This document shows, in pieces, positions 1,969-23,426 of a stretch of DNA of 26,375 nucleotides. A program made the position numbers and the translations under genes. The notes below the pieces were generated by a model. The model ran no database searches, had not been told where the DNA came from, and worked only from the letters and a program-made list of their open reading frames with translations. Origin of the DNA: a virus; the IMG/VR virus record IMGVR_UViG_3300025671_000431, positions 1 through 26,375 of that record. One strand, 5' to 3'. Numbering within the stretch: position 1 is the first letter of the stretch; each line of letters begins with the position of its first letter.

Positions 1969-1997
1969 ATTATAACTGATGTTACATATTATGCAAC
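1969..1997 (-). promoter_or_regulatory. Early-type promoter with 17-bp operator (site 1)
   Basis: On the minus strand: -35 TTGCAT (1996-1991), 16-base spacer, -10 TATAAT (1974-1969). The palindrome GTTGC-N7-GTAAC (1981-1997) covers the -35 box, the position expected for a repressor or activator site. The same arrangement occurs at 16640-16668 with a 30-base identical stretch. The transcript leader carries several CTAAC repeats. Confidence 0.8.
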
Positions 1998-2078
1998 AAA
2001 AAAAACAATAAATTGTATTATTTTTTTCAAATTGTTGTTATCGCTGATCGCCTTTGGTATATTTCAAGGGAGGATTCT

Positions 2079-2891
2079 ATGAAAAAGTATACGTACATTA
2101 TGAAAAGAACAGAACCTGCAACATCAAAGCAGGATACCGTTTCTTTTGTAGCTTCTACTTCTTCTCCTGATCGCTATGGTGATATTATCGATCAAAAGGG
2201 ATGGATATTAGAGAACTATAAAAAGAATCCTGTTGTTTTGCTCAATCACGATTCAAATCAATTACCGATAGGAAAAGGCAATGTTCACGTCAGAGATGGT
2301 CAACTTGTTATTGACGTACAATTCGATCAAGAGGATGAAAGAGCGAAAGAAGTTGAAAGAAAAGCGAAAAAAGGATTCATGAATGCTGTTTCTGTTGGTT
2401 TTCGACCTTTGGAAAGCAAATCAAGATCAGAACTTCCTGAAGATAATAAATACTATGGGAAGAGAGGCATGTACTATAGCAAATCTGAATTGCTAGAAGT
2501 ATCTATTGTTACAATTCCTGCAAATGGAGAAGCAACTATGTTAGAGCAAAAGTTTTATAACGCTATCAAAGAAGAACTTGTTGAAGAAGTCAAATCTATC
2601 ATCAAAGAAAATATGTTTGTTGGAAAACATATCTTATCTGTATCTGAAGAAGATGATCGCTACATTGTTGAATTTGCAAAGATGCCTTTAGAAGAATCTG
2701 CACTTGAAGAAGAAGAGATTGAAGAAGAAGGAATGCATGAAGAAGAAGAAGAAAAAGCAATGGATGAAAAAGAGGAAGAAAAAGAGATGGATGAGGAAGA
2801 GGAAAAAGCAGAAGACTCTGATGAATCCACAGAAGAAAAGAATTTCGATACTTTAATAGAGGCTTTTGCCTATATCTTAACGTCAAAATAG
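2079..2891 (+). CDS. HK97-type prohead protease with acidic C-terminal tail
   Basis: 270 aa from ATG 2079, chosen because GGGAGG lies six bases upstream; an in-frame start at 2013 has no such site. The Peptidase_U35/HK97 protease core is clear: the H57 motif (VLLNHD), the S105 motif (NAVSVGF) and E140 in LLEVSIV match the spacing of the HK97 triad. It would cut the capsid N-terminal domain and itself during maturation. Residues about 205-254 are almost all Glu, Asp and Lys, then a short hydrophobic end follows. Such a tail is not part of the catalytic core and may act as a scaffold inside the procapsid. The capsid gene follows after nine bases. Confidence 0.92.
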   Translation: MKKYTYIMKRTEPATSKQDTVSFVASTSSPDRYGDIIDQKGWILENYKKNPVVLLNHDSNQLPIGKGNVHVRDGQLVIDVQFDQEDERAKEVERKAKKGFMNAVSVGFRPLESKSRSELPEDNKYYGKRGMYYSKSELLEVSIVTIPANGEATMLEQKFYNAIKEELVEEVKSIIKENMFVGKHILSVSEEDDRYIVEFAKMPLEESALEEEEIEEEGMHEEEEEKAMDEKEEEKEMDEEEEKAEDSDESTEEKNFDTLIEAFAYILTSK

Positions 2892-2900
2892 GAGTAACCT

Positions 2901-4352
2901 ATGAACACCAAAATAGAAGAAGCAAAACGCCTTATAGCAGGCATTGTTTCACATCAAAAAAACACTGATGATCGTTTGCGTAACTTTGAAGATCAAGTAA
3001 AAGATCTGAAGAAAGCACAAAAGTTACTTGCAGAAGGTCAAAACACTATTGTTAAGCCTGAAGTAGGTACAAATGATCATGCTTTGAAACAATACATCAA
3101 AGAAGATTCTTCTGTACAATGGAATACAGAAAACGTATCTAAGAATATTACAGGTCAAGGACGTGTAAACATTCAGGAAAAAGGTTTGTTAGATGCGGAT
3201 GTTTATGCAAATCAATGGCATGCTGATCTTTGTGAAATGGTACAACAAAGAAGTCTTGCTCGTATGATGATGAAAGATCCTCATACTCCAAAAGCAGATA
3301 TTAAATTGTACAATCATCTTCAAAAGGCTCCTGCTTTTATGAAAGACGCAGTAAACAAAGCCTTCACAGATAACGCAGGAGTAGGTGCTGAATGGATTCC
3401 TGATCAATTCTCTACAGACTTGTATCAAACATTTCAAATTCCTAGAGGCCTTCGTGCTTTGTTGCCTTCTGTACAAATGGAACGTGAAACTCTTCTTATT
3501 CCAAAGTTGAATAGAGGCGGTCGTCCTTATATCAAAGGACAAATTACAGATGATCTTGCAAAGTATCAAGCAAGTACAATAGAAACCGCTCAAAAAACTG
3601 TTAGAGCAAAAGGTTTAGCTACTCTTATGAATATTGATGATGCTTCAGGAGAAGATTCTGCTTTTGCGATCATTCCTGCTATGTCTCGTCAAATCGCTCA
3701 AGACCTTGAAGATGCTTTTGAAGATTGTATGATCAACGGTGATTCTGCTGTAACTCATCAAGATGATATTGCAAACTGGAATATTAGAGAAAGATGGGGA
3801 GCTTCAGGACTTGGATCTTCTGCTGATCACAGACGTTTATTCAGAGGTATGAGAGCATCTGCTATTGATAAATCATCTATCAAAGACTTTGCAGGATCTG
3901 CTATGACCTTTGCAGGGTTTATGGATGCTGTAGCGCAACTTGGAGAACTTGCTGTTGGAAATAAAGTTTGTGTTGTATCTCCTGAGGCTCTTGTTGCAAA
4001 CTTCCTTCAATTGGATCAAGTTGTAACTCTTGAAAAGTTTGGAGCACAAGCAACGATTCTCACAGGTCAACTAGCTTCTCTTGCAGGTATTCCTATTGTT
4101 ATGTCTCGCTTTATTGGTGCAGATATGAATGGAAACGGATTGTATGATAATGTTACAAAAGACAAAACAGGATTTTTGGTATTTAATACAGATTCTTGGT
4201 ATCAATACCTACGTAGACAAATAACTGTTGAATCTGATAAAGATATTACTTCAGGTGCTATTCAAATCGTATCTACAATGCGTGCTGTTATGGATTCTCC
4301 TGATGCTGAAGCAGTGAAAAATGTTGTTTATGGTTATGACTTGCCTATCTAA
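2901..4352 (+). CDS. Major capsid protein, HK97 fold
   Basis: 483 aa. Residues 1 to about 55 form a charged heptad-type helix (delta/scaffold domain), expected to be removed by the protease encoded just upstream. The rest reads as an HK97-family capsid protein: AGVGAEWIPDQFS, LPSVQMERETLLIPKL, then an insertion with LGSSADHRRLFRGMR and a C-terminal AIQIVSTMRAVMDSPDA. Position directly after the protease and before the connectors is the standard order. RBS is GGAG at 2891-2894. The exact cleavage site is not visible from sequence alone. Confidence 0.92.
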   Translation: MNTKIEEAKRLIAGIVSHQKNTDDRLRNFEDQVKDLKKAQKLLAEGQNTIVKPEVGTNDHALKQYIKEDSSVQWNTENVSKNITGQGRVNIQEKGLLDADVYANQWHADLCEMVQQRSLARMMMKDPHTPKADIKLYNHLQKAPAFMKDAVNKAFTDNAGVGAEWIPDQFSTDLYQTFQIPRGLRALLPSVQMERETLLIPKLNRGGRPYIKGQITDDLAKYQASTIETAQKTVRAKGLATLMNIDDASGEDSAFAIIPAMSRQIAQDLEDAFEDCMINGDSAVTHQDDIANWNIRERWGASGLGSSADHRRLFRGMRASAIDKSSIKDFAGSAMTFAGFMDAVAQLGELAVGNKVCVVSPEALVANFLQLDQVVTLEKFGAQATILTGQLASLAGIPIVMSRFIGADMNGNGLYDNVTKDKTGFLVFNTDSWYQYLRRQITVESDKDITSGAIQIVSTMRAVMDSPDAEAVKNVVYGYDLPI

Positions 4353-4369
4353 TTTTTAAGGAGTTAAAA

Positions 4370-4735
4370 ATGTTTATACTTACAGAAAAAATTGAAGCGA
4401 TCACAAATGCAGATAAAACTCTTGCTCTTGTTGCTCCTGTTGATTGTCGTGTTGAATCCGCTTATATTATCGCAGATGTTGCTGTTGCTTCAGGTGCTAC
4501 TCCTAAGCTTGTCTGTGAAATCTACGCAGATGATGATGCTACAGTATTACTTTCAGCAGATTCAGAGGCAGATGGTTTCTCTCAAAATGCTCCTGTTCCT
4601 ATGGATCTTCAAAATGGAGTTTCAAAGCGATATGAAGCAGGAGAAGCTATTCAAGTCAAAGCAGATGTAACTGGTACTTTATCAGCTACAAATGTTCGAT
4701 TTGTTCTCAAATGTGTACCTGCTAGAGACATTTAA
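4370..4735 (+). CDS. Small protein after the capsid gene, possible head decoration protein
   Basis: 121 aa, preceded by AAGGAG. The sequence is rich in short beta-type stretches with alternating hydrophobic residues (TLALVAPVDCRVESAYIIADV, then IQVKADVTGTLS, then VRFVLKCVPA) and has no clear membrane segment. Lying between the major capsid gene and the first head-tail connector, it is where many siphoviruses encode a capsid decoration or stabilising protein. I do not recognise a named family; decoration is a guess from context and fold impression. Confidence 0.5.
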   Translation: MFILTEKIEAITNADKTLALVAPVDCRVESAYIIADVAVASGATPKLVCEIYADDDATVLLSADSEADGFSQNAPVPMDLQNGVSKRYEAGEAIQVKADVTGTLSATNVRFVLKCVPARDI

Positions 4736-4747
4736 GGAAAAAAATGA

Positions 4748-5359
4748 ATGAGTTTAGTATCTGTATCAACATTAAAAGAATATCTTCCTGAGATACAAGG
4801 ATCTTCTATTGATGCAGATCTAACTTCGCTTATTGCTCGAGTAGAGGGCTTTATTGCTCGATACTTGGGCTTTCCTTTATCTGATAGTGCTACTTCTTAC
4901 ACCTTAGATCAATCAACATATACAATATATGCAGATGGTTCTATGTATGGCCTTGAGTATGTTCTTCAGTCACCTTTGAAGCCTATTGTATCAATAACAT
5001 CTATTCATTCTGATGTTGATCGTGTTTATGGTTCTGATACTTTGTTAGATTCATCTCAATATGAGATAGATAAGGAATTGGGAAGAGTGATCTTAGATGA
5101 TACCTCTCCTGATACTTTTGATCGTGGTTTTAGAGCAATTAAAATTGTAGGTTCTTTTGGTTTCAGTACTTCAAACCCTCCTTCTGATTTGGTTCATGCT
5201 ATTTGTGTGTATTGTTCTCATTTACAGCGTGCAAAAAGCAATCAAGGGAATGTATCGGTTACTCAAAGGAATTCTACAGTTACTCTTTCTCCTAGAACAA
5301 TGCCTGAAGAGGTCAAAGAAATATTGAGAGGATATAGAAATGTCTCAACTATCCTTTGA
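4748..5359 (+). CDS. Head-tail connector (HK97 gp6 / SPP1 gp15-like)
   Basis: 203 aa. It begins with a short helical region (STLKEYLPE, then DADLTSLIARVEGFIARYLGFPL) that is characteristic of head-tail adaptor proteins, and continues with a beta-rich part and VGSFGFSTSNPPSDLVHAIC near residue 140, a usual pattern of this family (GY/F-G plus PxDL). It would form a ring under the portal. Start at 4748 is preceded by AAGGA; an out-of-frame ATG lies four bases earlier. It overlaps the next gene by 20 bases. Confidence 0.75.
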   Translation: MSLVSVSTLKEYLPEIQGSSIDADLTSLIARVEGFIARYLGFPLSDSATSYTLDQSTYTIYADGSMYGLEYVLQSPLKPIVSITSIHSDVDRVYGSDTLLDSSQYEIDKELGRVILDDTSPDTFDRGFRAIKIVGSFGFSTSNPPSDLVHAICVYCSHLQRAKSNQGNVSVTQRNSTVTLSPRTMPEEVKEILRGYRNVSTIL

Positions 5360-5723
5360 TGATTTTCTCAAGCGTGTCAGAGAAGCGGATAATAGATTGT
5401 TAGATGAACTTGAAAGGATTCTAACAATTTCCGCTTTGAGTATGGAAAGAGAAGCAAAACTGAACGCTACTTCATATCCAAAAGTAAGAACTGGAAGATT
5501 GAGATCATCTATAACAGGTCTTATTGATGCACCTATGGGATCTCCTAGAGTTGTTTTAAGAGCAGGAGGATCTTCTTCAGGTCGTGATGTCAATTATGCG
5601 GACTTTGTTGAATTTGGTACTCGGTTTATTCGTCCTCGTCTTTTTCTTGGCAGGGCTGTATCTTCAGAAAGAGAGCGTTTGCCTGATAGGTTATCTTCTC
5701 TTCTTAATGTTAGTTTGGGATGA
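5340..5723 (+). CDS. HK97 gp10-like head-tail joining protein
   Basis: 127 aa. The core TSYPKVRTGRLRSSI and YADFVEFGTRFIRPRLFLGRA is the hallmark of the HK97 gp10 family, which takes part in head closure and tail attachment. The N-terminus is a long helix (FDDFLKRVREADNRLLDELERI). The start lies inside the end of the previous gene, after GAGAGG, which suggests translational coupling. The next gene starts seven bases after the stop. Confidence 0.82.
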   Translation: MSQLSFDDFLKRVREADNRLLDELERILTISALSMEREAKLNATSYPKVRTGRLRSSITGLIDAPMGSPRVVLRAGGSSSGRDVNYADFVEFGTRFIRPRLFLGRAVSSERERLPDRLSSLLNVSLG

Positions 5724-5729
5724 TCTATA

Positions 5730-6182
5730 ATGCCTGATATCGTACATGTAACAATATTGAATAGATTGAAGACTTTAATAGCTACAGATTTCTCTAGTGG
5801 TTTTTCAGGTCTTGATCTTTCTGATCGTGTTGTTATTGGTGCAGTTCTTCATTCTCCTCAAATCCCTTCTGCTAGTATCGTTTTTATTGATACCATAGAG
5901 CAACAAGGGAGAACTCTAGGAAGATATGTAGGAGAATCTGTATATCAGATTGTATGTTACGCAGGAGGAGAAATTCTAGAATCTAGAATTCAGAATGCCA
6001 TGAATCTTGCAGGAGACATTCAAAAAGCAATAACTTCAGATCGTACTTTAGGCCTTTCAGGTCTTACAGAAGATGTAATTGTCAATTTTACATCTCTAGA
6101 TGGTGAAGAGTATGGTATAAGTAACACAGGGATCTCATTGTTAGAGGTTAGAGTATCCCATCAATCTCAATTCGGTGTATAG
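5730..6182 (+). CDS. Tail terminator / tail completion-like protein
   Basis: 150 aa. An N-terminal helix (VTILNRLKTLI) is followed by alternating strands, an SVYQIVCYAGG stretch, a helix (IQNAMNLAGDIQKAI) and a final strand (ISLLEVRVSHQSQFGV), the general plan of gpU / HK97 gp11-type tail terminators that cap the tail tube at the head side. Position after the gp10-like gene and before the tail tube supports it. No strict motif exists for this family, so the call rests on context and pattern. Confidence 0.6.
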   Translation: MPDIVHVTILNRLKTLIATDFSSGFSGLDLSDRVVIGAVLHSPQIPSASIVFIDTIEQQGRTLGRYVGESVYQIVCYAGGEILESRIQNAMNLAGDIQKAITSDRTLGLSGLTEDVIVNFTSLDGEEYGISNTGISLLEVRVSHQSQFGV

Positions 6183-6938
6183 ATGACTTGGTATAGTTCA
6201 AATTGGAAAAGAAGAATGCCTATAGCGATAGATACAAGTCTTGTATCTTCAGGCTCTTTTATCTTTTCGATCAATCTATCATTAACATGGGATGACTTTT
6301 GGAACAATGTTAGATCAGACGGTTTTGATGCTGTTATTGTAGATCAAAACGGAAATCAACCAATTTCTTTTGAAAGAGTTACATGGAATTTCTCAAGCAA
6401 GCAAGCAACATTTAGAGCAAATTACGGAGCTATTAAATCTCCTAATGTTATTCATCAGGTTTGGCTATATTGGGATAACCCCGATCAATCTTCTGATCTT
6501 GCTACAACAGGACTGACTTCAACCGTTAACGGATATATCTATTTAGGTGCTCCTTTTAAGAATATTGTCAATCTAGCATCTCAATCAGGTCTTTCAACTG
6601 TACCTACAACAATCATACAAAAAGATCCTGATGAAAAAATAGATATTTGGTTTCCAATCTCTCAATTGCTTGCTCCTCGATCATTACCTTCAGGAGAGCA
6701 TCTAGATTTTAAATTGGTTGATTATTATGATTTTGAGGTTTTGGATTCTTCAGGAGTTGCACAGCCTTCAATGATCTCTTTAGGAGAGACAAGATCGATC
6801 AATGGTTGGGTCAAATGTCGTATCATTTCAGGAACAGTAAATACTGATTATGTTGTACGTTGCCTTGTACAAAATACAGATCTAGAATTGTTCGTTATGT
6901 CATGTTTATTACAAGTTAGAAAATTATTACCTACATAG
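6183..6938 (+). CDS. DUF2341-like virion protein of unknown role
   Basis: 251 aa, starting immediately after the stop of the preceding gene. The first ~100 residues resemble DUF2341: W-SSNWKRRMPIAID at the start, DDFWNNVRSDGFDAVIVDQNG, and a strand ending in VWLYWDNP. In other proteins this is a beta-sandwich often linked to surface or carbohydrate-binding proteins. The remainder is not recognised. Its place between the tail terminator and tail tube genes means it is probably a virion protein, for example a neck or tail decoration. Role is inferred. Confidence 0.6.
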   Translation: MTWYSSNWKRRMPIAIDTSLVSSGSFIFSINLSLTWDDFWNNVRSDGFDAVIVDQNGNQPISFERVTWNFSSKQATFRANYGAIKSPNVIHQVWLYWDNPDQSSDLATTGLTSTVNGYIYLGAPFKNIVNLASQSGLSTVPTTIIQKDPDEKIDIWFPISQLLAPRSLPSGEHLDFKLVDYYDFEVLDSSGVAQPSMISLGETRSINGWVKCRIISGTVNTDYVVRCLVQNTDLELFVMSCLLQVRKLLPT

Positions 6939-6947
6939 GAGGATATT

Positions 6948-7907
6948 ATGCCGTTAGAATTTGGACGTGGAGCATTTATAAAACTAGGAGAAGAATCAAC
7001 TTATGGAACAATAGCTTCTTCAATGCCTGTAGATAACAGAATCATTTCTGCTTCTTTTCAAAAAACACAAGAGAAGGAACGCAAAACACATTTATCTCAA
7101 TCAGGTGCAGGTGGTTTTCAGAATGGCCATTTTGATGCTTTTTTGAATGTTGGAGGTTCTATAGATCTTCCTCTTCTCTATGAAGGTACAGGAATGCTTA
7201 TCAAGGCATCAATCGGATCTGCAACAACTACAGATCTATCTCCTGCTACTCCTCAGTATCAACATGATTATGAACCTTCCTCAAATGGAGAACTCCCTTC
7301 TTTGTCTATAGGTCTTCAAAGAGGTACTGGAGAATATGAGGTTTTTCTTGGTTGTAAAGTCGCTACAATGAGTATTTCAGGAACAGCAGGAGAAGAAGTA
7401 ACAGCATCTTTTGAAATAATAGCTCAAAATGCAAACGCAAGATCAACAGCTACTTCTTCAACTTTTGGATCAGGTCGTCAAATCTTTCATTATGAATCAG
7501 GAGATTTGAATTACAACTCTGCTACATACAAAATGAAAAGTTTTGAATTGTCACTTGATAACAAACTAGAAAGAAGAAATGTTCTAGGAGATAAGAAGAC
7601 CTTAGAACCAATTACAAATGATGTCAAAGATATTACATTGTCTGTGACTTTGGAAATGCAAGATAATGATCTTTATACTGATTATTTGAATGGTACACAG
7701 TCAGATGTAGAATTCACCTTCACAAATTCAGATGGTGATCTGTGTAATGTATTGATACGTAACTGTTATATTACAGACTATGATGATGCTGTTAATACCT
7801 TTGGAGCAATAGAAAGAACTATGACCTTTGTAGGAGAAGGAGATGCTTCAAATGAACCTATCAGAATCAGAATAACAAACAATCAATCAAGTGCTGTAGC
7901 AAACTAA
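6948..7907 (+). CDS. Major tail tube protein
   Basis: 319 aa, with GGAGG upstream. The opening (FGRGAFIKLGEESTYGT) and the later stretches (ATMSISGTAGEEVTASFEI; YKMKSFELSLDNKLERRNVLG; ITLSVTLEMQDNDLY) fit phage tail tube proteins of the phi13/Phage_tube type. It should polymerise into the hollow tube around the tape measure. Chaperone and tape-measure genes follow in the standard order, with an extra small gene between. Confidence 0.85.
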   Translation: MPLEFGRGAFIKLGEESTYGTIASSMPVDNRIISASFQKTQEKERKTHLSQSGAGGFQNGHFDAFLNVGGSIDLPLLYEGTGMLIKASIGSATTTDLSPATPQYQHDYEPSSNGELPSLSIGLQRGTGEYEVFLGCKVATMSISGTAGEEVTASFEIIAQNANARSTATSSTFGSGRQIFHYESGDLNYNSATYKMKSFELSLDNKLERRNVLGDKKTLEPITNDVKDITLSVTLEMQDNDLYTDYLNGTQSDVEFTFTNSDGDLCNVLIRNCYITDYDDAVNTFGAIERTMTFVGEGDASNEPIRIRITNNQSSAVAN

Positions 7908-8159
7908 ATGGATCGAAAACTTCTAGAATACATACTGAACAAATGTCAGATAGATATAAATATTCTATCGAAGCAAACAGGAATAAAATATCAATATTTG
8001 TATCAGGTGTTTTATAGTGATCGAAAACTGAAAGATTATGAACTGGAAGTTTTGAATGCATATTTGAAGAAAAAAACAGAGTTATCATCATTCTATATAG
8101 ATAAAAGGATCAACAAAATAAAAGGCAGGAATTATGGAAATATTAAAGGAGATCGCTGA
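7908..8159 (+). CDS. Small helix-turn-helix-like protein inside the tail module
   Basis: 83 aa. The ATG follows the tail tube stop codon directly, with no clear Shine-Dalgarno site, so translation probably depends on the upstream gene. Residues about 8-50 (LNKCQIDINILSKQTGIKYQYLYQVFYSDRKL) look like a Cro/CI-type HTH, with the usual pattern of a first helix, a turn at TGI and a recognition helix. The C-terminus is basic. It overlaps the chaperone gene by 26 bases. It could bind DNA or RNA or be an unrelated helical assembly protein. Confidence 0.6.
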   Translation: MDRKLLEYILNKCQIDINILSKQTGIKYQYLYQVFYSDRKLKDYELEVLNAYLKKKTELSSFYIDKRINKIKGRNYGNIKGDR

Positions 8160-8661
8160 AGCAAGTACATTTCAAGTATCTTGTTTTGGTGGAAAGTTAC
8201 TCATAGAAGGAAGAATCTTAACCGCTCCCGAAATAGAGCAGATCGGATTGGGTTCTTCTTTGCTTGCACAGGAGGTCTTGATATCAAACAAACAAAAAGG
8301 CCTCAACACGATCGATCAAATCAGAGAAAAAGCGGATAAAGAAGGAATGGAAGGTCTTGAAGAATCAGAACTTATGAGACTTCTAGATTTTGCAAAATCG
8401 ATCAGACCTGAAACAATGGCAAGGATATCAGAAGATCAGGATAAGATTCTCTGCAAGGTCATCAAAAGAGCATCTCAGGATCAAGGCGTGACGTGGGAAA
8501 ATATCACATTATGTCATGCTATGGAACAAATGAACGCAGATCAAAATGTTTTATGGGTTGGAGTTTTCACTTCTGAAGATCGTAATAGCATCATAAATAA
8601 AGCGATGCAAGGCCAACAGGAGGCAGTTGAACGGCTTAAACGATTTCAAGGAAGATCCTAA
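8134..8661 (+). CDS. Tail assembly chaperone, upstream frame (gpG-like)
   Basis: 175 aa, preceded by AGGA. The sequence is mostly helical and acidic (IDQIREKADKEGMEGLEESELMRLLDFAKSI; SIINKAMQGQQEAVERLKRF) with no membrane or catalytic motif. It lies between the tail tube and tape measure genes, where nearly all siphoviruses encode a gpG/gpGT chaperone pair that coats the tape measure during assembly. The end overlaps a second frame (+1) open from 8597 to 8872, as expected for the pair. Family call is from position and architecture. Confidence 0.72.
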   Translation: MEILKEIAEASTFQVSCFGGKLLIEGRILTAPEIEQIGLGSSLLAQEVLISNKQKGLNTIDQIREKADKEGMEGLEESELMRLLDFAKSIRPETMARISEDQDKILCKVIKRASQDQGVTWENITLCHAMEQMNADQNVLWVGVFTSEDRNSIINKAMQGQQEAVERLKRFQGRS

Positions 8662-8872: not shown

Positions 8873-8892
8873 TAGGATGCAAAGAGGTTATC

Positions 8893-14622: not shown

Positions 14623-14631
14623 GAGAATATT

Positions 14632-14790
14632 ATGAAAATATGGTGTAGACTCAAAACAGAAGATGGATATCATTATGTATATGTAGATAAAGATTTTGCT
14701 ATGATGCTATGTATCAAACAAGGATATGAGATCAAAATAGATCCTTCAGAAGTTCCTGAGCATATAAAAAAAGAATGGATGAATAGATGA
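14632..14790 (+). CDS. Small protein (52 aa) of unknown function
   Basis: Starts at ATG 14632 with AGGAG eight bases upstream. The stop overlaps the next start (ATGA), so it is tightly coupled to the transpeptidase-like gene. Contents: MKIWCRLKTEDGYHYVYV, then a short helix and a KIDPSEVPEHIK segment. No membrane segment. Not recognised. Confidence 0.7.
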   Translation: MKIWCRLKTEDGYHYVYVDKDFAMMLCIKQGYEIKIDPSEVPEHIKKEWMNR

Positions 14791-15763: not shown

Positions 15764-15770
15764 TATTGCT

Positions 15771-16517: not shown

Positions 16518-16546
16518 AAAAAACATTCTTCCTGCCTTCGGTTTTT

Positions 16547-16576
16547 CCTCCCTTTCTCCTTTGGGAGGTTTTTTTT
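16547..16576 (+). terminator. Strong rho-independent terminator after the lysis operon
   Basis: CCTCCC (16547-16552) pairs with GGGAGG (16563-16568) around a ten-base loop and is followed by eight T. It closes the long structural and lysis transcript 30 bases after the last stop codon. Confidence 0.92.
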
Positions 16577-16639
16577 CATCAAGATCATATCGTGTATGAC
16601 GTGATCTATAATTTATTTTATCTTTTTTTATAAATAAAT

Positions 16640-16668
16640 GTTGCATAGCGTGTAACATCAGTTATAAT
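16640..16668 (+). promoter_or_regulatory. Early-type promoter with 17-bp operator (site 2)
   Basis: -35 TTGCAT (16641-16646), 16-base spacer, -10 TATAAT (16663-16668). The palindrome GTTGC-N7-GTAAC (16640-16656) covers the -35 box. From the second half of the palindrome to 10 bases past the -10 box it is identical to site 1, which faces the other way at 1969-1997. The leader continues with CTAAC repeats and AAGGA. Confidence 0.85.
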
Positions 16669-16703
16669 ATAATTACTAACCAACTAACAAAAGGAAAAAC
16701 AAA

Positions 16704-17414
16704 ATGTCAAACATCATCACAAATATCGAAAACCTACTTGTAGAATCAAAAACCTTTTCAAATCAAGATTTTCTAGTAAAAAACTTTATGAAAAATGAAG
16801 AATTATCAAATAGAACAGATTCTGTTTTTATTCAAGATCAAAAAGGAAATATTATATTCAAAGGTGATTTTGATTCTGCGATCAAATTGTTAGAAGCAGA
16901 AAAAAATATCATCACTTCTTCACACTTTGATTTTTTAGAATCAGATGCAATATCATTGTTTATTACAGTCACAACAGAAGAAGAAGAAGAAGAAAAAGCA
17001 TCAACAAAATTCAAAATAGAAATCTTATTTGGTTTTTATTTCACATACACAGAAAATCTTAATTTAGAACTCAAAGAAGATTTTCAATATCTACAAGAAG
17101 AATTGAAATCTGTATTCTCTCAAATCAAATACAATCATATTGATGATCTTATGTATTGTGACTTTGAAGATATCACAGAAACATCAAATAAAGACTTGAA
17201 AAAACTCATTAGAGAGTATCAAATCAGAACAGACTATACAATCATCACAGAAGATATGTTTAACGCTGTAACATCAAAATATGAGATTCAATCAAGTACA
17301 TTTACATCTAAAGCAACAAAACATTATGATTTGACTTATAAAAGATACTTGAAAAATAGTAGAACATTCAAATATCAAGGAAATACATACATACATAAAG
17401 AACAAATGATCTAA
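16704..17414 (+). CDS. Unknown protein in a single-gene early-type unit (236 aa)
   Basis: Start at ATG 16704, with AAAAGGA upstream. The protein is acidic, with a run of Glu at about residues 93-98 and a Tyr/Phe-rich middle (FKIEILFGFYFTYTENLNLELKEDFQYL). No signal peptide, membrane span, cysteine pair or catalytic motif that I recognise. It has its own operator-controlled promoter and its own terminator, and lies between lysis and fibre genes, as a moron-type cassette would. Codon use looks slightly more A-rich than in the structural genes. Possible roles include host takeover or anti-defence, but nothing in the sequence proves it. Confidence 0.85.
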   Translation: MSNIITNIENLLVESKTFSNQDFLVKNFMKNEELSNRTDSVFIQDQKGNIIFKGDFDSAIKLLEAEKNIITSSHFDFLESDAISLFITVTTEEEEEEKASTKFKIEILFGFYFTYTENLNLELKEDFQYLQEELKSVFSQIKYNHIDDLMYCDFEDITETSNKDLKKLIREYQIRTDYTIITEDMFNAVTSKYEIQSSTFTSKATKHYDLTYKRYLKNSRTFKYQGNTYIHKEQMI

Positions 17415-17437
17415 CAATCAACAACCAAACAATCAAC

Positions 17438-17465
17438 AAAGACTTCTTCTGAGGTCTTTTTTTTT
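17438..17465 (+). terminator. Terminator of the 236-aa gene
   Basis: AAAGAC (17438-17443) pairs with GTCTTT (17454-17459) with two inner pairs, followed by a run of T to 17465. It lies 23 bases after the stop codon and isolates the unit from the fibre genes. Confidence 0.85.
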
Positions 17466-17473
17466 GCCTTGTT

Positions 17474-17502
17474 TTGTGTATTACAATATATTGATATATA
17501 AT
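17474..17502 (+). promoter_or_regulatory. Promoter of the tail-fibre cassette
   Basis: TTGTGT (17474-17479), 17-base spacer, TATAAT (17497-17502), placed between the upstream terminator and the first fibre-region gene at 17525. It lacks the 17-bp operator palindrome of the early sites, so it is probably controlled differently. Confidence 0.6.
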
Positions 17503-17524
17503 ACTCAGAAGGCAGGAAAAAGAT

Positions 17525-17935
17525 ATGGGCATGGGTTTTGGTAAATTTACAGGATCGATCACTGGTATAGGTACAACCTACGATCTAACAAAGAAAGCAG
17601 AGATTGATCTGAACTACAATCCTAGAACTGCAAGATTTTTAGCTCATGTTTCCTATCTCAATATTCAATGCTCTAACCTTGCTCCTGCAGATAAACCTGA
17701 TGAGATCACAATCTGCATATCAGAAGATCCTGAAGGGGATCAGATGATTGTAACAGATACCACAAGTACATTACAACATGGTCTATCAACTGATACAAAA
17801 GCAACAGCGATCTATAAGATTGACGTTATCATAACCTTAGATCGTGCAGATACAGTATATCTTCACATCAAAACCAACAAGGGAACCTTAGAGCTTAACG
17901 AGGCCTTTATAACTTGGCAGGATGAAAAGAAATAA
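17525..17935 (+). CDS. Fibre-cassette protein, probable virion component (136 aa)
   Basis: Starts at ATG 17525 with AGGA upstream. Beta-rich with conserved-looking blocks GFGKFTGSITGIGTTYDLTK, LNYNPRTARFLAHVSYLNIQ and DADTVYLHIKTNKG-like strands near the end. No signal peptide or membrane span. The overlap of its stop with the next start (TAATG) and the fibre gene further on suggest a tail-fibre accessory or adhesin component. Family not recognised by name. Confidence 0.65.
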   Translation: MGMGFGKFTGSITGIGTTYDLTKKAEIDLNYNPRTARFLAHVSYLNIQCSNLAPADKPDEITICISEDPEGDQMIVTDTTSTLQHGLSTDTKATAIYKIDVIITLDRADTVYLHIKTNKGTLELNEAFITWQDEKK

Positions 17936-18195
17936 TGTCTATCGGTAATGTATTCAATAATTCAGGAGGTACAGCATCTTCAGGAGGAGGAGGATCTTCA
18001 GATGGTACGATCAAAGAGGTATCATTTACAAATCAAACCTCTCTATCTATCTCTCATGATTTTTCGCATCATCCAACAGTTATAATTGTTGATGCTTCAG
18101 GAAATCTTATAGAAGCACAAGTTCAATATAATTCAAGTAGCAATATATTGATAAATTTTGCTATTTCTGTTTCAGGTACTGTAATAATTAGATAA
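17935..18195 (+). CDS. Short fibre-tip-like protein sharing the C-terminal domain of the long fibre
   Basis: 86 aa. After a glycine/serine-rich linker (residues about 8-23) comes a domain VSFTNQTSLSISHDFSHHPT, VIIVDASGNLIEAQVQYN and a final strand VSGTVIIR. The same order of features (T-SI-H-F/L, then V-I-D-SG/D-LI/V-AQV) makes up the last ~70 residues of the 416-aa fibre encoded next. It thus looks like a detached copy of the fibre tip. It may add to or compete for a tip position on the fibre. Confidence 0.65.
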   Translation: MSIGNVFNNSGGTASSGGGGSSDGTIKEVSFTNQTSLSISHDFSHHPTVIIVDASGNLIEAQVQYNSSSNILINFAISVSGTVIIR

Positions 18196-18235
18196 TATAA
18201 TAGAGTCTTTTAACCCATAACAAAAGGATTTTATT

Positions 18236-19486
18236 ATGCCATTCAATAATTATGCTCCTCAGTACGTCTTCAAAGGTCAAGTACAATCAGATACTGCTCC
18301 TTCTGCAAACAATGATCTAGTAAGAAAGCAAGATGTATCAGGACTTTCATATATCTCCTCGATTGCTTCAGGTTCTTCGAGTTATCTATCTGTGACAAAT
18401 GGAGAATTATCTGTTTCAAACTTGCTTGTAACTGATGTTATTGTCAATACAACAGATGCTTCTTTGAGTGCTTATATCACAAACTCTGCTTCAGGTGACA
18501 ATCTAGGAGTAGGTGACATCGTTATCTTGACAGCTCCAACAGACAATCTTATGTATATTGTCAAAGCAGGAACAGGTTCACAGGCTTCAGACTATGAAGA
18601 GATTCAATCATCTTTAACATCTGCTGAAATCGTTGCATTGTTGACAGGTGGAACTGGGATCAGTGTTGCTTCAAATGGTACAATTGCAATTGATTTTACA
18701 GAATTCGATACAGATAGTATAACAGAAGGATCTTCAAATCTTTTCTATTCTTCTTCCTTGTTTGATACAGATTTTGGAGGAAAGAGCACAAGTGATCTAT
18801 CTGAAGGATCTAACTTGTATTACACAGATGCAAGAGCAAGAACAGCTGTTTCTGCTTCAGGAGATTTGAGCTATAATAATTCCACTGGTGTTTTTAATGT
18901 CGTAACTTATAAGAGTTCAGATTTTGATTTGGATTTTGGCGGTAAAGATACAGATGATCTTTCAGAAGGATCTACAAATCAATACTTTACAGATGCAAGA
19001 GCAAGAGCTTCTTTATCAGGTGGAAGTGGTATCAGTTATGATTCTTCAACAGGTCAAATTTCTGTTGATTCAGGTGATGGTCTTATTTTTGATATCTCAA
19101 CTGGAGAGATGAGCGTAAAACTTGGAACAAACAAAGGTCTTGAGTTTGTTTCAGGTGGTGTTAGTATGAAACTTGGAGATGGTTTTGCTTTCTCTTTGGC
19201 TGGTGAACTTGCTCTAAATTTGGGTGCAGGACTTGAAATTGATTCTGTGAATGGCCAATTAAAAGCAAATGATGATCACTTCAGAAAAGAATTTTCATCT
19301 CAATCTTTTACTGCAAATACAGGAAAAACGATAAATCATAACTTGGGCAAAAAATACGTACATGTATCAATCTATGATTCTTCGGATCAACTGGTACAAG
19401 CGCAGGTTTCTTTGACAGATGCAAACAATCTTGAAATAACTACATCTTCTTCCTTGACAGGAGTCACAGTAGTTGTTAGTATCTAA
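18236..19486 (+). CDS. Tail fibre protein with TDARAR repeats
   Basis: 416 aa, preceded by AAGGA. The N-terminus (YVFKGQVQSDTAPSANNDLV) is the usual virion-anchoring start of repeat-type phage fibres. From about residue 158 to 258 it has repeats of DFGGK-T-DLSEGS-YFTDARAR, a motif common in tail fibres. A glycine-rich beta region follows (GLEFVSGGVSMKLG), then a C-terminal domain from about residue 345 (INHNLGKKYVHVSIYDSS) like that of the 86-aa neighbour. It probably trimerises and recognises the host. No chaperone gene is obvious. Confidence 0.8.
   Translation: MPFNNYAPQYVFKGQVQSDTAPSANNDLVRKQDVSGLSYISSIASGSSSYLSVTNGELSVSNLLVTDVIVNTTDASLSAYITNSASGDNLGVGDIVILTAPTDNLMYIVKAGTGSQASDYEEIQSSLTSAEIVALLTGGTGISVASNGTIAIDFTEFDTDSITEGSSNLFYSSSLFDTDFGGKSTSDLSEGSNLYYTDARARTAVSASGDLSYNNSTGVFNVVTYKSSDFDLDFGGKDTDDLSEGSTNQYFTDARARASLSGGSGISYDSSTGQISVDSGDGLIFDISTGEMSVKLGTNKGLEFVSGGVSMKLGDGFAFSLAGELALNLGAGLEIDSVNGQLKANDDHFRKEFSSQSFTANTGKTINHNLGKKYVHVSIYDSSDQLVQAQVSLTDANNLEITTSSSLTGVTVVVSI
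18770..19005 (+). repeat. Diverged direct repeats in the fibre gene
   Basis: Two copies, 18770-18840 and 18932-19005, encode the DFGGK-DLSEGS-TDARAR unit. They differ by one codon in length and end in the same bases (AGATGCAAGAGCAAG). A third, degenerate copy lies just upstream (about 18706-18769). Such repeats can recombine to change fibre length. Confidence 0.75.
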
Positions 19487-19502
19487 TGGGGTTTGTTTTT
19501 GC

Positions 19503-19540
19503 CATGTTTCTCCGAACATGATATTTTAAAATAGAAACAT
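19503..19540 (+). other. Two overlapping hairpins after the fibre gene
   Basis: CATGTT (19503-19508) can pair with AACATG (19515-19520), or ATGTTTCT (19504-19511) can pair with AGAAACAT (19533-19540). The two cannot form together. They lie in the 207-base gap 19487-19693, before the main terminator. Function unknown. Confidence 0.45.
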
Positions 19541-19578
19541 TATTTGTTTTACTATTGTTTGTTGTTAGTTATTTAAGG

Positions 19579-19617
19579 CTCCTACAGAAGTTCGTCCTGT
19601 GGGAGTTCTTTTTTTTT
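19579..19617 (+). terminator. Terminator of the fibre cassette
   Basis: CTCCTACAG (19579-19587) pairs with CTGTGGGAG (19597-19605) over nine pairs including one G-T, followed by a T-rich run to 19617. Confidence 0.92.
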
Positions 19618-19629
19618 GTTGTTTTTTTA

Positions 19630-19664
19630 TTGGACTTATTCAAAGATGTTACTTATAATGTAAC
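19630..19664 (+). promoter_or_regulatory. Promoter and operator of the replication operon (site 3)
   Basis: -35 TTGGAC (19630-19635), 18-base spacer, -10 TATAAT (19654-19659). Here the 17-bp palindrome GTTAC-N7-GTAAC (19648-19664) covers the -10 box, not the -35 as at sites 1, 2 and 5. The leader has CTAACAA repeats and AAGGA. Confidence 0.8.
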
Positions 19665-19693
19665 TACTAACAACTAACAAAAGGAAAAACAAT

Positions 19694-20011
19694 ATGATAA
19701 ATTTCATACTCGATTTTCAAGATGAGAATGTCATCATTCAACTTGAAAAGAAATCATACATCTTTGATAATGCTAGAAATGGAGCAGAGGCAGTTTATTA
19801 TCTTCTTCAAGGCATTGATACAATTGAATCTCTAGGAGGTAAAGAATATTTATTCTCGTGTATTGTACGATATGATCATGAGGATGTTGAAAATATTATG
19901 AAGACCTTCACAGAATACAAAAAAGAAAATGAATTTGATTCATTATTTGCGGAAATCTTTTTTGAAGAAGTACACCTTGCATGGTACGTTAGAGGAGGCT
20001 GTGATGAATAA
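19694..20011 (+). CDS. Hypothetical protein, first gene of the replication operon (105 aa)
   Basis: Start at ATG 19694, with AAAAGGA about ten bases upstream. Acidic, mixed alpha/beta (INFILDFQDENVIIQLEKKSY, then VENIMKTFTEYKKENEFDSLF). No domain recognised. It overlaps the initiator gene by eight bases, so the two are likely translated in coupled fashion. Confidence 0.7.
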   Translation: MINFILDFQDENVIIQLEKKSYIFDNARNGAEAVYYLLQGIDTIESLGGKEYLFSCIVRYDHEDVENIMKTFTEYKKENEFDSLFAEIFFEEVHLAWYVRGGCDE

Positions 20012-20999
20012 CCAATTTGCTATTATATACAAAGAAGAAATTGCTATGCTTCGAGACTGTAAAACAGTTACAAAAAGCGTTTTCATGGCATTATCATATC
20101 ATTTCAGTACAGAAGAAAAAGAAGGCGTTAGAACTAGGTTCTGCTGTCCTTCTTATGATGTTATATCTGATCTTACAGGATACTCAAAAGGAAGCATAAA
20201 AAGAGCTATCAGAGAACTCAAAGATAAAGGTGTTCTATCTTCAAAAAAGAGAATGGGATCATCTTCTTTGATTTATGTTGAATACAAAATTGATACTACA
20301 GAAGGATCACATGTTAAGCCTTTCGAGGGATCACATGTTAAGCCCACAGAAGGATCACATGTTGATACCTCAGAAGGATCACATGTTAAGCCCAAAGAAG
20401 GATCACATGTTAAGCCCACAATTAACAACAAAGATAACAACAAAGAATTAACAACAAATATTAACAGATTGATATTGTCAGAAAAGCAAAAAACAATCTT
20501 AGATCATTTTTGTCAATTCTTTGGATGGATAACCAAAGAAGATTACATTGAAGACCTTGAAAATAAACTGCCTTCTTCCTGTTCTGAATATCTTACAGAT
20601 GAATTGATGTTGATAGGTGCATACAATTTGAAAAGAATCGAGGAGAAGAAAGGAGCATGGACTGGTAACTATTTTATTACTGGAATTGTTAGATGGATTG
20701 AAGGAGGAAAAGGAAAATCATCAAAACCTTCTGTTTATATGAGTTCTTTGATTGAGAGGTTACATAAAGAGGTTCTTCCATTCAAACGAGAAAAGAAGCA
20801 AATCAAAGAAGAGCAACCTTTGAAAATAGCAACCACAAAAGAAGGTCAAGAGGATTTTGATTGGTTGCTAGATCATCTTATCAAACAATATCAGAATCTT
20901 CCTTCAGGCCTCAACAGGGATCAACTTATCAATCTCAAAGAATCCGTATATTGTCACGATCTCAATCTTCAAAAAATAAAAACAGCTATAGGAGAGTAA
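20004..20999 (+). CDS. Replication initiator protein with N-terminal winged HTH (lambda O-like layout)
   Basis: 331 aa from ATG 20004, preceded by GAGGAGG; a longer reading from 19929 would run through the previous gene. Residues about 1-95 form a winged helix of the kind seen in phage initiators (CCPSYDVISDLTGYSKGSIKRAIRELKDKGVL). Residues 100-139 are five 8-residue repeats of EGSHVKPT type, encoded by DNA iterons. The C-terminal part (DEDYIEDLENKL-like region, then GAWTGNYFITGIVRWIEGG) resembles replisome-organiser proteins that load a helicase. The initiator probably binds the iterons in its own gene. No helicase or loader gene is clear nearby. Confidence 0.75.
   Translation: MNNQFAIIYKEEIAMLRDCKTVTKSVFMALSYHFSTEEKEGVRTRFCCPSYDVISDLTGYSKGSIKRAIRELKDKGVLSSKKRMGSSSLIYVEYKIDTTEGSHVKPFEGSHVKPTEGSHVDTSEGSHVKPKEGSHVKPTINNKDNNKELTTNINRLILSEKQKTILDHFCQFFGWITKEDYIEDLENKLPSSCSEYLTDELMLIGAYNLKRIEEKKGAWTGNYFITGIVRWIEGGKGKSSKPSVYMSSLIERLHKEVLPFKREKKQIKEEQPLKIATTKEGQEDFDWLLDHLIKQYQNLPSGLNRDQLINLKESVYCHDLNLQKIKTAIGE
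20301..20420 (+). repeat. Five 24-bp iterons, probable replication origin
   Basis: Five units with an exact 24-base period: 20301, 20325, 20349, 20373 and 20397. All share GGATCACATGTT, and four continue AAGCC; the third differs there. The units keep the reading frame. Location after the DNA-binding domain of an initiator and before an A/T-rich stretch matches the lambda-type origin. Confidence 0.85.
20421..20475 (+). other. A/T-rich stretch beside the iterons, possible unwinding element
   Basis: Directly follows the last iteron. Nearly free of G and C pairs, with repeated TTAACAACAAA-type units and an A-rich upper strand. It encodes a simple Asn/Lys/Thr linker of the initiator. In lambda the same position holds the easily melted region. 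Confidence 0.6.
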
Positions 21000-21000
21000 C

Positions 21001-21309
21001 ATGAAACACATAGCAAGCAATCTAACAGAATATACAGATAAAAATATCAAAACCTTACAGGAGCAGTATGAGGAGAATAAGAAGAAACTATCTAGTGATC
21101 TTGATCTTCATGTTGATGATATGGTTATTTTCAGGAAAAAAGAATTGTCAAAGGTTCAAATTGTTGGTAAGATTCTTTCAATCACTGAAAACACATTACA
21201 TGTCAAGACATTTGTTTCTTTTAAGGGGATCAATGAATTCTATCTTGATATCGGAGCAGTTAAAAAGTATGATACAGTATCGAATAGCAAACAGCATAAG
21301 AAAACTTGA
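21001..21309 (+). CDS. Hypothetical protein in the replication operon (102 aa)
   Basis: ATG 21001 follows the initiator stop by one base, with GGAG about eight bases upstream. It has an N-terminal helix (LTEYTDKNIKTLQEQYEENKKK) and a small beta-rich part (VDDMVIFRKKELSKVQIVGKIL, then TLHVKTFVSFKG) that could be an SH3- or OB-like barrel. Overlaps the HNH gene. Not recognised. Confidence 0.65.
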   Translation: MKHIASNLTEYTDKNIKTLQEQYEENKKKLSSDLDLHVDDMVIFRKKELSKVQIVGKILSITENTLHVKTFVSFKGINEFYLDIGAVKKYDTVSNSKQHKKT

Positions 21310-21934
21310 AACGATAGAAGATTCTCTGAGATTCTTTGAATCTGCAAAAAAAGAAGAAGAAGAATCTCTGTTAAATCTTATATCTAACTATATGCAACAA
21401 TGTACAGCAGAAGAGAATCAGGAAGGGATAGATAGTCTTGTCAGATATTTATACTGGTATACAGATTTTAAGCCTTCTCACATCTCAGAGATTACAGGAA
21501 TAGATAACAGAACAATTACAAAAAGAGCAGGGGATCTCGTGTTCTCTGCTTCCTGTTCTCGCTGTCAAACATCTTTTGCAAACAGAAGAACCTCAAGAAC
21601 CGATCAAGGCTCTCATCTTTGTCCTGCTTGTCAAAATCAGGATATTCTAGATCATCATAAAGTTTTTTTAGAAGATTGGATTGATAGCTCATGGGCTACT
21701 CATAAAAATCCAAAGATGGATCAGGGAACATATTCTGCATATCTTCACAGTCAACACTGGAAGAAAACACGAGGAGAAGCATTAAAAAGAGCATCTTATA
21801 GATGTCAAGCATGTTCCTCCAAAGATGAGATTCTAGATGTTCATCATAACTCTTATGATAGACTAGGAGCAGAAGATCCTTCTGATTTGATTGTTCTTTG
21901 TCGATCCTGTCATTCAAAGGTACATGGCAAATGA
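21269..21934 (+). CDS. HNH endonuclease with extra zinc ribbon
   Basis: 221 aa from ATG 21269; ATG 21233 (with AAGGGG upstream) is an alternative start, and the frame is open further back within the previous gene. Order: a helical N-terminus (about 1-45), an HTH-like part (HISEITGIDNRTITKRAGDL, 71-90), a zinc ribbon with C96, C99, C118 and C121, and an HNH domain with C179, C182, VHHNSYDRLG (H192, H193) and C211, C214, H219. The HNH motif is complete. It may act in recombination, replication or host DNA breakdown. It is not next to the terminase, unlike packaging-linked HNH enzymes. Confidence 0.8.
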   Translation: MIQYRIANSIRKLETIEDSLRFFESAKKEEEESLLNLISNYMQQCTAEENQEGIDSLVRYLYWYTDFKPSHISEITGIDNRTITKRAGDLVFSASCSRCQTSFANRRTSRTDQGSHLCPACQNQDILDHHKVFLEDWIDSSWATHKNPKMDQGTYSAYLHSQHWKKTRGEALKRASYRCQACSSKDEILDVHHNSYDRLGAEDPSDLIVLCRSCHSKVHGK

Positions 21935-22278
21935 CTTGTCTAGTGAGTACAAAACGCAAAGAGATAGATAATAGCTATTCTGTTCTAGTCACTTGTTTGT
22001 CTTGTGGTTACTCTATGAGAGTTGACGCAGAGTTTGATAAGATTCTTTGCCTCAACTGTACCTGCAAACTATACAAAACAAAATACTTGTCACAGAAGGC
22101 CTTGAAAGAAAGAATATCGCACCTAGAAAAAGAACTGAAGCAGGAACTAGATGCAACAGCAAAAACTGTAATAGCAGGATTCTCTCCTGTATCTCCCTTC
22201 ACATCGTACAAAAAGAGCAAACAAAGATTAAAACGGATCTCTGCTCTTCCTGAAAAGATAAAAAAAGAGAAAAAATAA
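21931..22278 (+). CDS. Small zinc-ribbon protein
   Basis: 115 aa from ATG 21931, overlapping the HNH stop (ATGA). C22, C25, C40 and C43 make a CxxC-CxxC zinc ribbon (LVTCLSCGYSMR, then ILCLNCTC). The rest is a long Lys/Glu-rich helix (LKERISHLEKELKQELD) and a basic end. Possibly a DNA- or RNA-binding helper. Last gene before the next operator site; no clear terminator follows. Confidence 0.7.
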   Translation: MTCLVSTKRKEIDNSYSVLVTCLSCGYSMRVDAEFDKILCLNCTCKLYKTKYLSQKALKERISHLEKELKQELDATAKTVIAGFSPVSPFTSYKKSKQRLKRISALPEKIKKEKK

Positions 22279-22288
22279 CAAATAATTG

Positions 22289-22326
22289 TTTACAACTCCT
22301 TTTCTATGTGTTACATAATAAGTAAC
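22289..22326 (+). promoter_or_regulatory. Operator with weak promoter (site 4)
   Basis: The palindrome GTTAC-N7-GTAAC at 22310-22326 precedes the gene at 22347 and is followed by the same CTAACAAAGGAG leader type. A -35-like TTTACA (22289-22294) stands 17 bases before TACATA (22312-22317); the -10 match is poor. Confidence 0.6.
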
Positions 22327-22346
22327 AACTAACAAAGGAGAAACAA

Positions 22347-22556
22347 ATGATAGAAGTAGACTACAAACCAGTTCTAGAAAACAATACATTCAACTACATC
22401 AATGTCGTATCTAGCGCAGGAATCATCATTGAAAGATTCACTTGCAAAGAAAAGATGAGTGCATATCTTGTACAAAATTGCTTCCTTCCTTTTGAATGGA
22501 GAGCATACTGGAGAGAATACACAAATGAAACCTTCATTACAGTCTTTGTAATGTAA
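22347..22556 (+). CDS. Hypothetical protein (69 aa)
   Basis: ATG 22347 with AAAGGAG upstream. Compact mixed alpha/beta sequence (YINVVSSAGIIIERFTCKEKM, then FEWRAYWREYTNETFITVFVM). First gene of a small early operon under operator site 4. Not recognised. Confidence 0.65.
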   Translation: MIEVDYKPVLENNTFNYINVVSSAGIIIERFTCKEKMSAYLVQNCFLPFEWRAYWREYTNETFITVFVM

Positions 22557-22588
22557 TAACCAACAACTAACAACCATAGGAGAACAAA

Positions 22589-22708
22589 ATGAATACAATC
22601 ATTGAAATAGCTACTTTATGCCTTGAATATAGAACAGAGGTTTATATCTTCCTCTTCTCTTCTGCTCTTTTCACTTCTCTTCTTATGTTTGGAGGATCAA
22701 ATGAATAA
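22589..22708 (+). CDS. Tiny membrane protein (39 aa)
   Basis: ATG 22589 with AGGAGA about six bases upstream and a CTAACAAC leader before it. One hydrophobic span (VYIFLFSSALFTSLLMF, about residues 18-34). Its stop overlaps the next start, and the next gene's GGAGG lies within it. Could be a small membrane-acting early protein. Function unknown. Confidence 0.6.
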   Translation: MNTIIEIATLCLEYRTEVYIFLFSSALFTSLLMFGGSNE

Positions 22709-23099
22709 ACAGCAAATCATACAACACTTGAATGAATATGTCGATCAGATTGTAGAAGAACACAAGTTCAAACTCTTTTCTAGATACGTCAAAAGTAAGA
22801 AGGTGCAATTTGTAGATTGCTCTGTTGCTCCAAATCTAGAATATACATTCATGACTGGCAAAACCATAACAGGAGGCCACACTGTAAAAATCTTTGATAG
22901 ATTGGGCAAAAGAGAACCTCAAAGAATGCAATGTAGTTGTGCAGATTGGACTTATAGACTGAAGAAAGAACAGAAGCCTTGTAAACACATTTTCGCATTA
23001 ATAGAACGCTATCAAACCAAAAGAAAGTACTTGCTTGAAAAAGCATGGCTTATACAGCAGAAGAAACTTAAAGAACTAACCAACCTCAAAGGAGAATAG
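22701..23099 (+). CDS. SWIM zinc-finger protein (132 aa)
   Basis: Start at ATG 22701, chosen because GGAGG (22691-22695) precedes it; a reading from 22623 would pass through the small upstream gene. C78-x-C80, then C94-x-H96 (CSCADWTYRLKKEQKPCKHIFAL) is a classic SWIM motif, known for binding DNA or proteins in transposases, kinases and Rad51-linked factors. It is a stand-alone form with no other catalytic domain. In the early region it may join replication, recombination or host DNA control. Confidence 0.75.
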   Translation: MNKQQIIQHLNEYVDQIVEEHKFKLFSRYVKSKKVQFVDCSVAPNLEYTFMTGKTITGGHTVKIFDRLGKREPQRMQCSCADWTYRLKKEQKPCKHIFALIERYQTKRKYLLEKAWLIQQKKLKELTNLKGE

Positions 23100-23100
23100 A

Positions 23101-23370
23101 ATGAAACTCAATATCTATATCAATCGACTTGTTAGAAGCATTGAAAAAGAGATCGGAAAAAAAGAAGCAATGAATCTTCTAGGAGTACGTAGAGAAACGA
23201 TCTTCAGATGGAGAAAAAACTACTATGGCCTATCTGTAGACAATCTTGAACATATCTCTAGAAAATATTGTTCTGTATTTCCTGATTCTGATCTCAAAGA
23301 AGTGTTTATGCAAGGTTTGATCTGTTTGATGGAAGATAGACTATCTGATCCAAAGAAAATGAAGAATTAA
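23101..23370 (+). CDS. Small HTH DNA-binding protein, candidate regulator
   Basis: 89 aa. ATG 23101 follows the SWIM gene by one base, with AGGAGA upstream. The segment KKEAMNLLGVRRETIFRWRKNYYGLSVDNLEHISRKY (about residues 20-56) fits a Cro/CI or XRE-type HTH. It sits at the end of the operon under operator site 4 and just before site 5, which would suit an autoregulating repressor. No evidence links it to the operator directly. Confidence 0.65.
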   Translation: MKLNIYINRLVRSIEKEIGKKEAMNLLGVRRETIFRWRKNYYGLSVDNLEHISRKYCSVFPDSDLKEVFMQGLICLMEDRLSDPKKMKN

Positions 23371-23397
23371 TTATTTTGATCTTTTTTATATATATTT

Positions 23398-23426
23398 GTT
23401 GCATAACAAGTAACATATGTTATTAT
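23398..23426 (+). promoter_or_regulatory. Early-type promoter with 17-bp operator (site 5)
   Basis: -35 TTGCAT (23399-23404), 16-base spacer, -10 TATTAT (23421-23426). The palindrome GTTGC-N7-GTAAC (23398-23414) covers the -35 box, exactly as at sites 1 and 2. Confidence 0.8.

Follow-up and report, generated by a model that had tools for sequence, protein, structure and literature searches.

Promoter dyads dispersed over a tailed-phage genome covary between related phages with a small Cro-like candidate regulator

The viral record IMGVR_UViG_3300025671_000431 carries the same spaced 17-bp dyad, GTTRC-N7-GTAAC, at five separate promoters, which raises the question of what reads it and with what effect on the genes behind it. 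The window analysed here is the entire IMG/VR contig of 26,375 bp, so that counts of the dyad cover all of the record; protein family scans found head, tail, replication and terminase genes in it, the content of a tailed phage. By comparing the window with related phages, each of which uses its own version of the dyad (Table 1), we arrived at the reading that the five dyads are very probably operators of H1, a phage-encoded, Cro-like helix-turn-helix (HTH) protein of 89 residues that would repress the promoters.

Promoter dyads in the window and its relatives

All five dyads named in an earlier note on this DNA were found as exact 17-mers (Table 2), compared with 0.05 expected from shuffled sequence; none of the shuffles equalled five, which rules out chance dyads. 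Each lies within a promoter, and the record holds no further exact copy. Promoter boxes and spacers, read directly off the sequence, bear out the arrangement described in that note, with the dyad over the -35 box at sites 1, 2 and 5 and over the -10 box at sites 3 and 4, the box of site 4 being a weak one. Site 4 is also the first element of the operon containing H1. Iterons and ParB-type sites were ruled out because the dyads are single and stand at promoters, and RNA hairpins because sites 1, 2 and 5 precede the start and are not transcribed; an Rfam search gave no match. At 22536-22552, at the end of the 69-residue gene, we also observed a degenerate ATTAC-N7-GTAAT with two mismatches, which might act as a sixth, weak site.

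Scans with H1, the ArdC-like and capsid proteins and further queries yielded about 20 related IMG/VR contigs, four of them of 30-32 kb. Two relatives, G004 and G007, both start and end inside one gene and are read as near-complete permuted genomes; they carry the portal and the large terminase, the former and most of the latter being missing from the window record. The relatives keep the 17-bp 5-N7-5 geometry upstream of the same genes with different half-sites, and the split between dyads over the -35 and dyads over the -10 recurs in them. A class-motif scan showed that each genome has one private operator class across its sites: exact class matches were almost confined to genomes of that class, at two to five per larger genome, and those stray matches that were inspected lay in coding sequence, such as GTTGA-N7-TCAAC at window position 604, inside a head gene. 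In neither the record nor the relatives were dyads equally common away from promoters.

Table 1 Operator classes and the recognition helices of the corresponding H1 proteins
Class	Half-sites	Genomes	H1 recognition helix	Remark
A	GTTRC/GTAAC	window, G012, L026-L028, L010, L011, L065	RRETIFRWRKN	
B	GTTGC/GAAAC	G004, L044, G026	NRTTIFRWKKN	
C	GTTGA/TCAAC	G007, G014	ERTTLYKWENN	
D	GTTTA/TAAAC	L008, G017, G028	SRTSIYLREYN	
D'	GTTTA/TGAAC	L033, G027, G029, L056	SRTSIYMTEHN	
E	GTTGT/ATAAC	G031, L050, L053, L072		
F	GTAAC/GATAC	L029	SRMTIHRWKND	both sites over -10, like window sites 3 and 4
G	GTAGC/GCTAC	L088 (same phage as L070)	SRWTLGRWQKG	
	GTTGC/GGAAC	L068		

Could such sequences arise with no regulator at all, by chance or as an element intrinsic to the promoter, for example an extended -35? 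The -35 box does lie inside the left half-site, so part of the conservation is promoter constraint. The bases that vary, however, stay dyad-symmetric: half-site pair 5, in which C, A and T all occur, is complementary in 23 of 23 distinct operators (permutation p 5e-5), and so is pair 3, with T or A (23 of 23; permutation p 5e-4). Together with the sites that lie over the -10 and the sets private to each class, this leaves an explanation of that kind with almost no probability.

The divergent promoter of site 1 bears class-specific dyads in its versions from the relatives. Beside the operator, about 60 bp are near-identical among phages of classes C, D, D' and E while its inner bases differ, so that the switch is a local one and not the swap of a large cassette. 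The comparison as a whole indicates that the DNA code of the operators changed at least seven times on a near-constant genome.

Covariation of H1 with operator class

Across the 35 gene families with enough members, and with classes D and D' pooled, H1 alone had every same-class pair (minimum 90% identity) above every different-class pair (maximum 73%). If D' is kept separate, H1 still separates the classes, by 2 points, and a few families with a single same-class pair also exceed zero. A Mantel test gave r 0.80 for H1 (p 0.0002, n=11), whereas r was 0.05 for the SWIM gene next to it, -0.07 for the methyltransferase gene on its 3' side and 0.19 for H3, an HTH-like protein at 25933. The same pattern is visible in a single pair of phages, G007 (GTTGA) and L008 (GTTTA), whose DNA is about 95% identical up to H1, including the SWIM gene, falls to 47-63% in the HTH of H1 and is about 87-100% identical just 3' of it. 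A promoter with a dyad precedes H1, on its own strand, in the window as well as G004, G007, G014, G017, L008, L033 and L029.

Of the two HTH proteins put forward in the earlier note as regulators, the one at 23101, H1, is strongly supported by this covariation; the other, H2 at 7908, was rejected, its homologues being 87-90% identical across classes B, C and D. H3 was rejected likewise, being 96-100% identical among phages whose operators belong to classes A, B, C, D, D' and E. That another phage or host HTH protein reads the dyads, with the divergence of H1 a coincidence, draws on the presence of these two further small HTH-like proteins and on host regulators that could bind. A host factor, though, would not explain phage-private classes with near-identical flanks, and H1 is the sole linked family of the 35, so that we regard a different reader as highly improbable. 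H2 (7908-8159, between tail genes) is itself variable, with 36-39% identity between G004 and either G007 or the window where its neighbours reach 71-94%, and this variability does not follow operator class.

Within H1, residues 36 and 35 are candidate specificity determinants, for half-site bases 5 and 3 respectively: Arg36 goes with C at base 5, and we propose that Phe or Tyr at residue 35 goes with T at base 3, and His or Gly there with A. Before the promoter of the relative L038 was inspected, we recorded the prediction that Arg36 in its H1, which is about 35% identical to that of the window, would be matched by C at base 5. At the promoter of a 108-residue open reading frame (ORF), L038 carries GTATC-ATTTTAT-GTTAC by TTACAA-16-TATAAT, with class F half-sites, and the base-5 prediction held; such a dyad arises by chance in about 1 in 200 shuffles. 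The H1 proteins of L038 and of L029 (class F) have His35-Arg36 in common. The comparison did not establish L038 and L068 as one phage.

An AlphaFold2 model of H1 built with 13 homologues had a predicted local distance difference test score (pLDDT) of 89.3 and five main helices (3-18, 20-27, 31-39, 46-59 and 65-81); a model from the single sequence was poor. The predicted fold is compact and all-helical with the HTH in helices 2-3, consistent with an XRE/lambda-repressor-like domain, and the top lists from Foldseek and VIA consisted mostly of XRE proteins (HigA, C proteins, Stl, DdrO, ImmR, SinR). Comparison of H1 with described phages gave no match.

Several observations weigh against H1 as the Cro-like reader of these operators. 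Its fold-match scores are modest (best Z 7.2), and no Pfam family matched it above cut-off, HTH_3 and its sisters appearing below threshold only, for which reason we do not claim XRE membership from sequence. Half-site pair 4 is often mismatched, its left base being mostly G or T; this base doubles as the third base of the -35, and the mismatches are likely a compromise between promoter and operator. Some smaller families also reach Mantel r values of 0.4-0.66 (terminase r 0.66, p 0.017, n=7), plausibly through shared ancestry. There are about nine independent pairs of H1 and operator, and the phages are related by descent, so that the permutation p-values given here are indicative. No H1 partner is known for class E operators, nor any operator for the L037 H1, a viral scan for its operator partner having yielded no new contig. 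Finally, G012 overlaps classes A and B, with a class A H1 and one GTTGC/GAAAC site.

Proposed repression and comparison with known systems

We propose that an H1 dimer would bind each 17-bp dyad, one recognition helix contacting each 5-bp half-site, and, lying on the -35 at sites 1, 2 and 5 and on the -10 at sites 3 and 4, would keep out RNA polymerase. Repression would shut the anti-restriction, replication, nuclease and other operons as well as the operon of H1 itself; as the window has no terminator-like site from site 4 through to the 3' end of its gene, H1 is probably autoregulated through site 4. In the relatives, the same circuit would operate with another recognition helix and a matching half-site everywhere, which would give separate immunity-like specificity groups. 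The results support the core of the earlier idea, in which one operator of lambdoid size marks several non-structural operons and has a phage HTH protein as its reader. Given that the controlled genes are non-structural (anti-restriction, replication, HNH, SWIM and others), their early expression is plausible.

H1 might instead activate the dyad promoters in the manner of CII. Like CII sites, three of the dyads overlap the -35; a few members of the H1 family match CII-like families weakly (best E 0.004), and the site TTGATTN6AATCAA, which the CII equivalent YdaT binds (PMC9986795), resembles class C. Sites 3 and 4 and those of L029, however, lie over the -10, where an activator would obstruct polymerase, and the distance from dyad to start varies, whereas an activator has to sit at a constant distance; sites 1, 2 and 3 moreover have the consensus TATAAT as their -10 box, and their spacers are normal. 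Lambda CII recognises direct repeats; the dyads here are inverted and do not form a CII-type TTGC-N6-TTGC direct repeat across the -35. Sites over either core box, in varied registers and at near-consensus promoters, fit steric repression far better, and we consider activation unlikely.

Repression by H1 would resemble the lambdoid CI/Cro systems (lambda, 434, P22, 933W) in its symmetric operators of 17-bp scale over core promoters, in the HTH repressor fold and in the way that a recognition helix and its matching operator define immunity groups. Unlike in those systems, there is one dyad per promoter, dispersed over about 30 kb, and no adjacent divergent cI-cro pair; H1, a single small regulator inside a controlled operon, is flanked by the SWIM gene and by the 81-residue protein and methyltransferase genes, and no integrase was detected. 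The temperate, integrating Streptomyces phage phiC31 is comparable in that a single repressor reads several inverted repeats of 17 bp, which stand at early promoters; this repressor is not known to be related to H1. A literature search on P2-like repressors, Cro-like repressors of virulent phages and the phiC31 inverted repeats found no match.

Cluster A mycobacteriophages have dispersed stoperators whose genome-specific motif drifts with the repressor; these sites are asymmetric, lie mostly in one orientation and also halt elongation, and the phages carry int or parABS (PMC6550527, PMC9283540). Here too, a dispersed and genome-specific site motif covaries with a regulator, but each site is an inverted repeat within a promoter, the regulator has 89 residues and, where the cluster A motif tracks whole-genome distance, we observed discrete specificity classes on near-identical backbones. 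The system works like the lambdoid and cluster A immunity pairs, and we file it as a member of neither. The C proteins of restriction-modification (R-M) systems, such as C.Esp1396I, are small autoregulated dimers of XRE fold, were among the Foldseek matches of H1 and likewise have a DNA methyltransferase gene nearby, 3' of H1 in this case. In contrast to R-M systems, the sites here stand at replication and other operons genome-wide, not at methyltransferase or endonuclease genes. No restriction enzyme was recognised among the scanned window proteins, which represent part of the ORFs.

No tyrosine or serine recombinase or integrase and no ParA was found in the window, which is incomplete, or in the four larger relatives. 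It is conceivable, although we hold it only tentatively, that phages lacking detectable lysogeny genes form at least seven immunity-like groups on a near-constant backbone, the recognition helix of the regulator and all the dispersed operators having been replaced together; repression during lytic co-infection or an unrecognised episomal state, and not classical prophage immunity, would then have driven the divergence. That superinfection or co-infection selected for this divergence is speculative, and any benefit of the groups might arise in co-infection, in an episomal state or in lysogeny by unrecognised genes. The phages pose the question of why genomes without a recognisable integrase retain immunity-like specificity groups. 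They also amount to a natural experiment in which one small regulator seems to have taken on several DNA specificities between near-constant flanks, providing matched protein-DNA pairs with which to probe the HTH recognition code.

Transcription units and neighbouring features

The genes and terminators around the dyads are listed in Table 2. Family matches agree with the labels ArdC-like, O-like initiator, HNH and SWIM given in the earlier note; its 'recombinase', the 126-residue protein, is not backed by any named family.

Table 2 Operators, genes and terminators of the dyad-bearing units in the window
Feature	Position	Strand	Remarks
Operator site 1 GTTGCATAATATGTAAC	1981..1997	-	covers -35 of TTGCAT-16-TATAAT (1996..1969); leftward ArdC-like unit
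Operator site 2 GTTGCATAGCGTGTAAC	16640..16656	+	covers -35; TTGCAT 16641-16646, spacer 16, TATAAT 16663-16668
Operator site 3, perfect dyad GTTACTTATAATGTAAC	19648..19664	+	covers -10 TATAAT 19654-19659; TTGGAC 18 nt upstream
Operator site 4, perfect dyad GTTACATAATAAGTAAC	22310..22326	+	covers weak -10 (CATAAT/TACATA) behind TTTACA
Operator site 5 GTTGCATAACAAGTAAC	23398..23414	+	covers -35; TTGCAT 23399-23404, spacer 16, TATTAT 23421-23426
H1, 89-residue XRE/Cro-like candidate regulator	23101..23370	+	recognition helix about residues 30-39 (RRETIFRWRK)
ArdC N-domain-like protein	1646..1927	-	first gene under site 1; PF08401, E 7e-15
126-residue protein	1207..1587	-	second gene under site 1; phrog_22961; 87-90% conserved in relatives
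236-residue protein	16704..17414	+	under site 2; no homologue among compared relatives
105-residue protein	19694..20011	+	first gene under site 3
O-like replication initiator, gene with internal 24-bp repeats	20004..20999	+	under site 3; phrog_678 and others
HNH endonuclease-like protein	21269..21934	+	downstream of site 3; PF01844, phrog_119
69-residue protein	22347..22556	+	first gene under site 4
SWIM zinc-finger protein	22701..23099	+	under site 4, immediately 5' of H1; PF04434
81-residue protein	23457..23702	+	under site 5
Intrinsic terminator	1149..1177	-	ends leftward site 1 unit
Intrinsic terminator	16551..16568	+	just before site 2; parts tail genes from site 2 unit
Intrinsic terminator	17438..17459	+	after site 2 unit

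Directly after the regulator unit, at 23772-25493, lies a gene for a DNA methyltransferase fused to a ParB-like domain. Within the O-like initiator gene, five tandem 24-bp repeats (ACAGAAGGATCACATGTTAAGCCC) at 20298-20420 resemble the in-gene origin iterons of lambda O. A CTAAC-rich stretch recurs in the leaders of the genes under dyad control and ends in TAACAAAAGGA or TAACAAAGGAG ahead of the start codon (1920-1960, 16672-16695, 19665-19690, 22327-22345 and 22557-22585), and the relatives have similar TAACCAAAGGA leaders at dyad-bearing and dyad-less genes alike. At 2035-2063, outside the dyad, there is a conserved promoter-like TTGTTA-17-TATATT (TTGTAC-17-TATATT in relatives), a candidate late promoter, which stands with a conserved CCTTTGG element ahead of the protease and capsid genes.

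A capsid query against GTDB contigs gave no match, and a terminase query found one distant contig, 51% identical, in a Verrucomicrobiales metagenome-assembled genome (MAG), a match too weak for a host to be named. L094, the distant relative on a Verrucomicrobiales MAG contig with this 51% identical terminase, has no H1 homologue but carries its own repeated 17-bp dyads just before genes, at 4059-4075, 5151-5167 and 6403-6419 (GTTCT-N7-AGAAC twice and GTATT-N7-AATAC once), which are perhaps sites of another regulator or leader hairpins.

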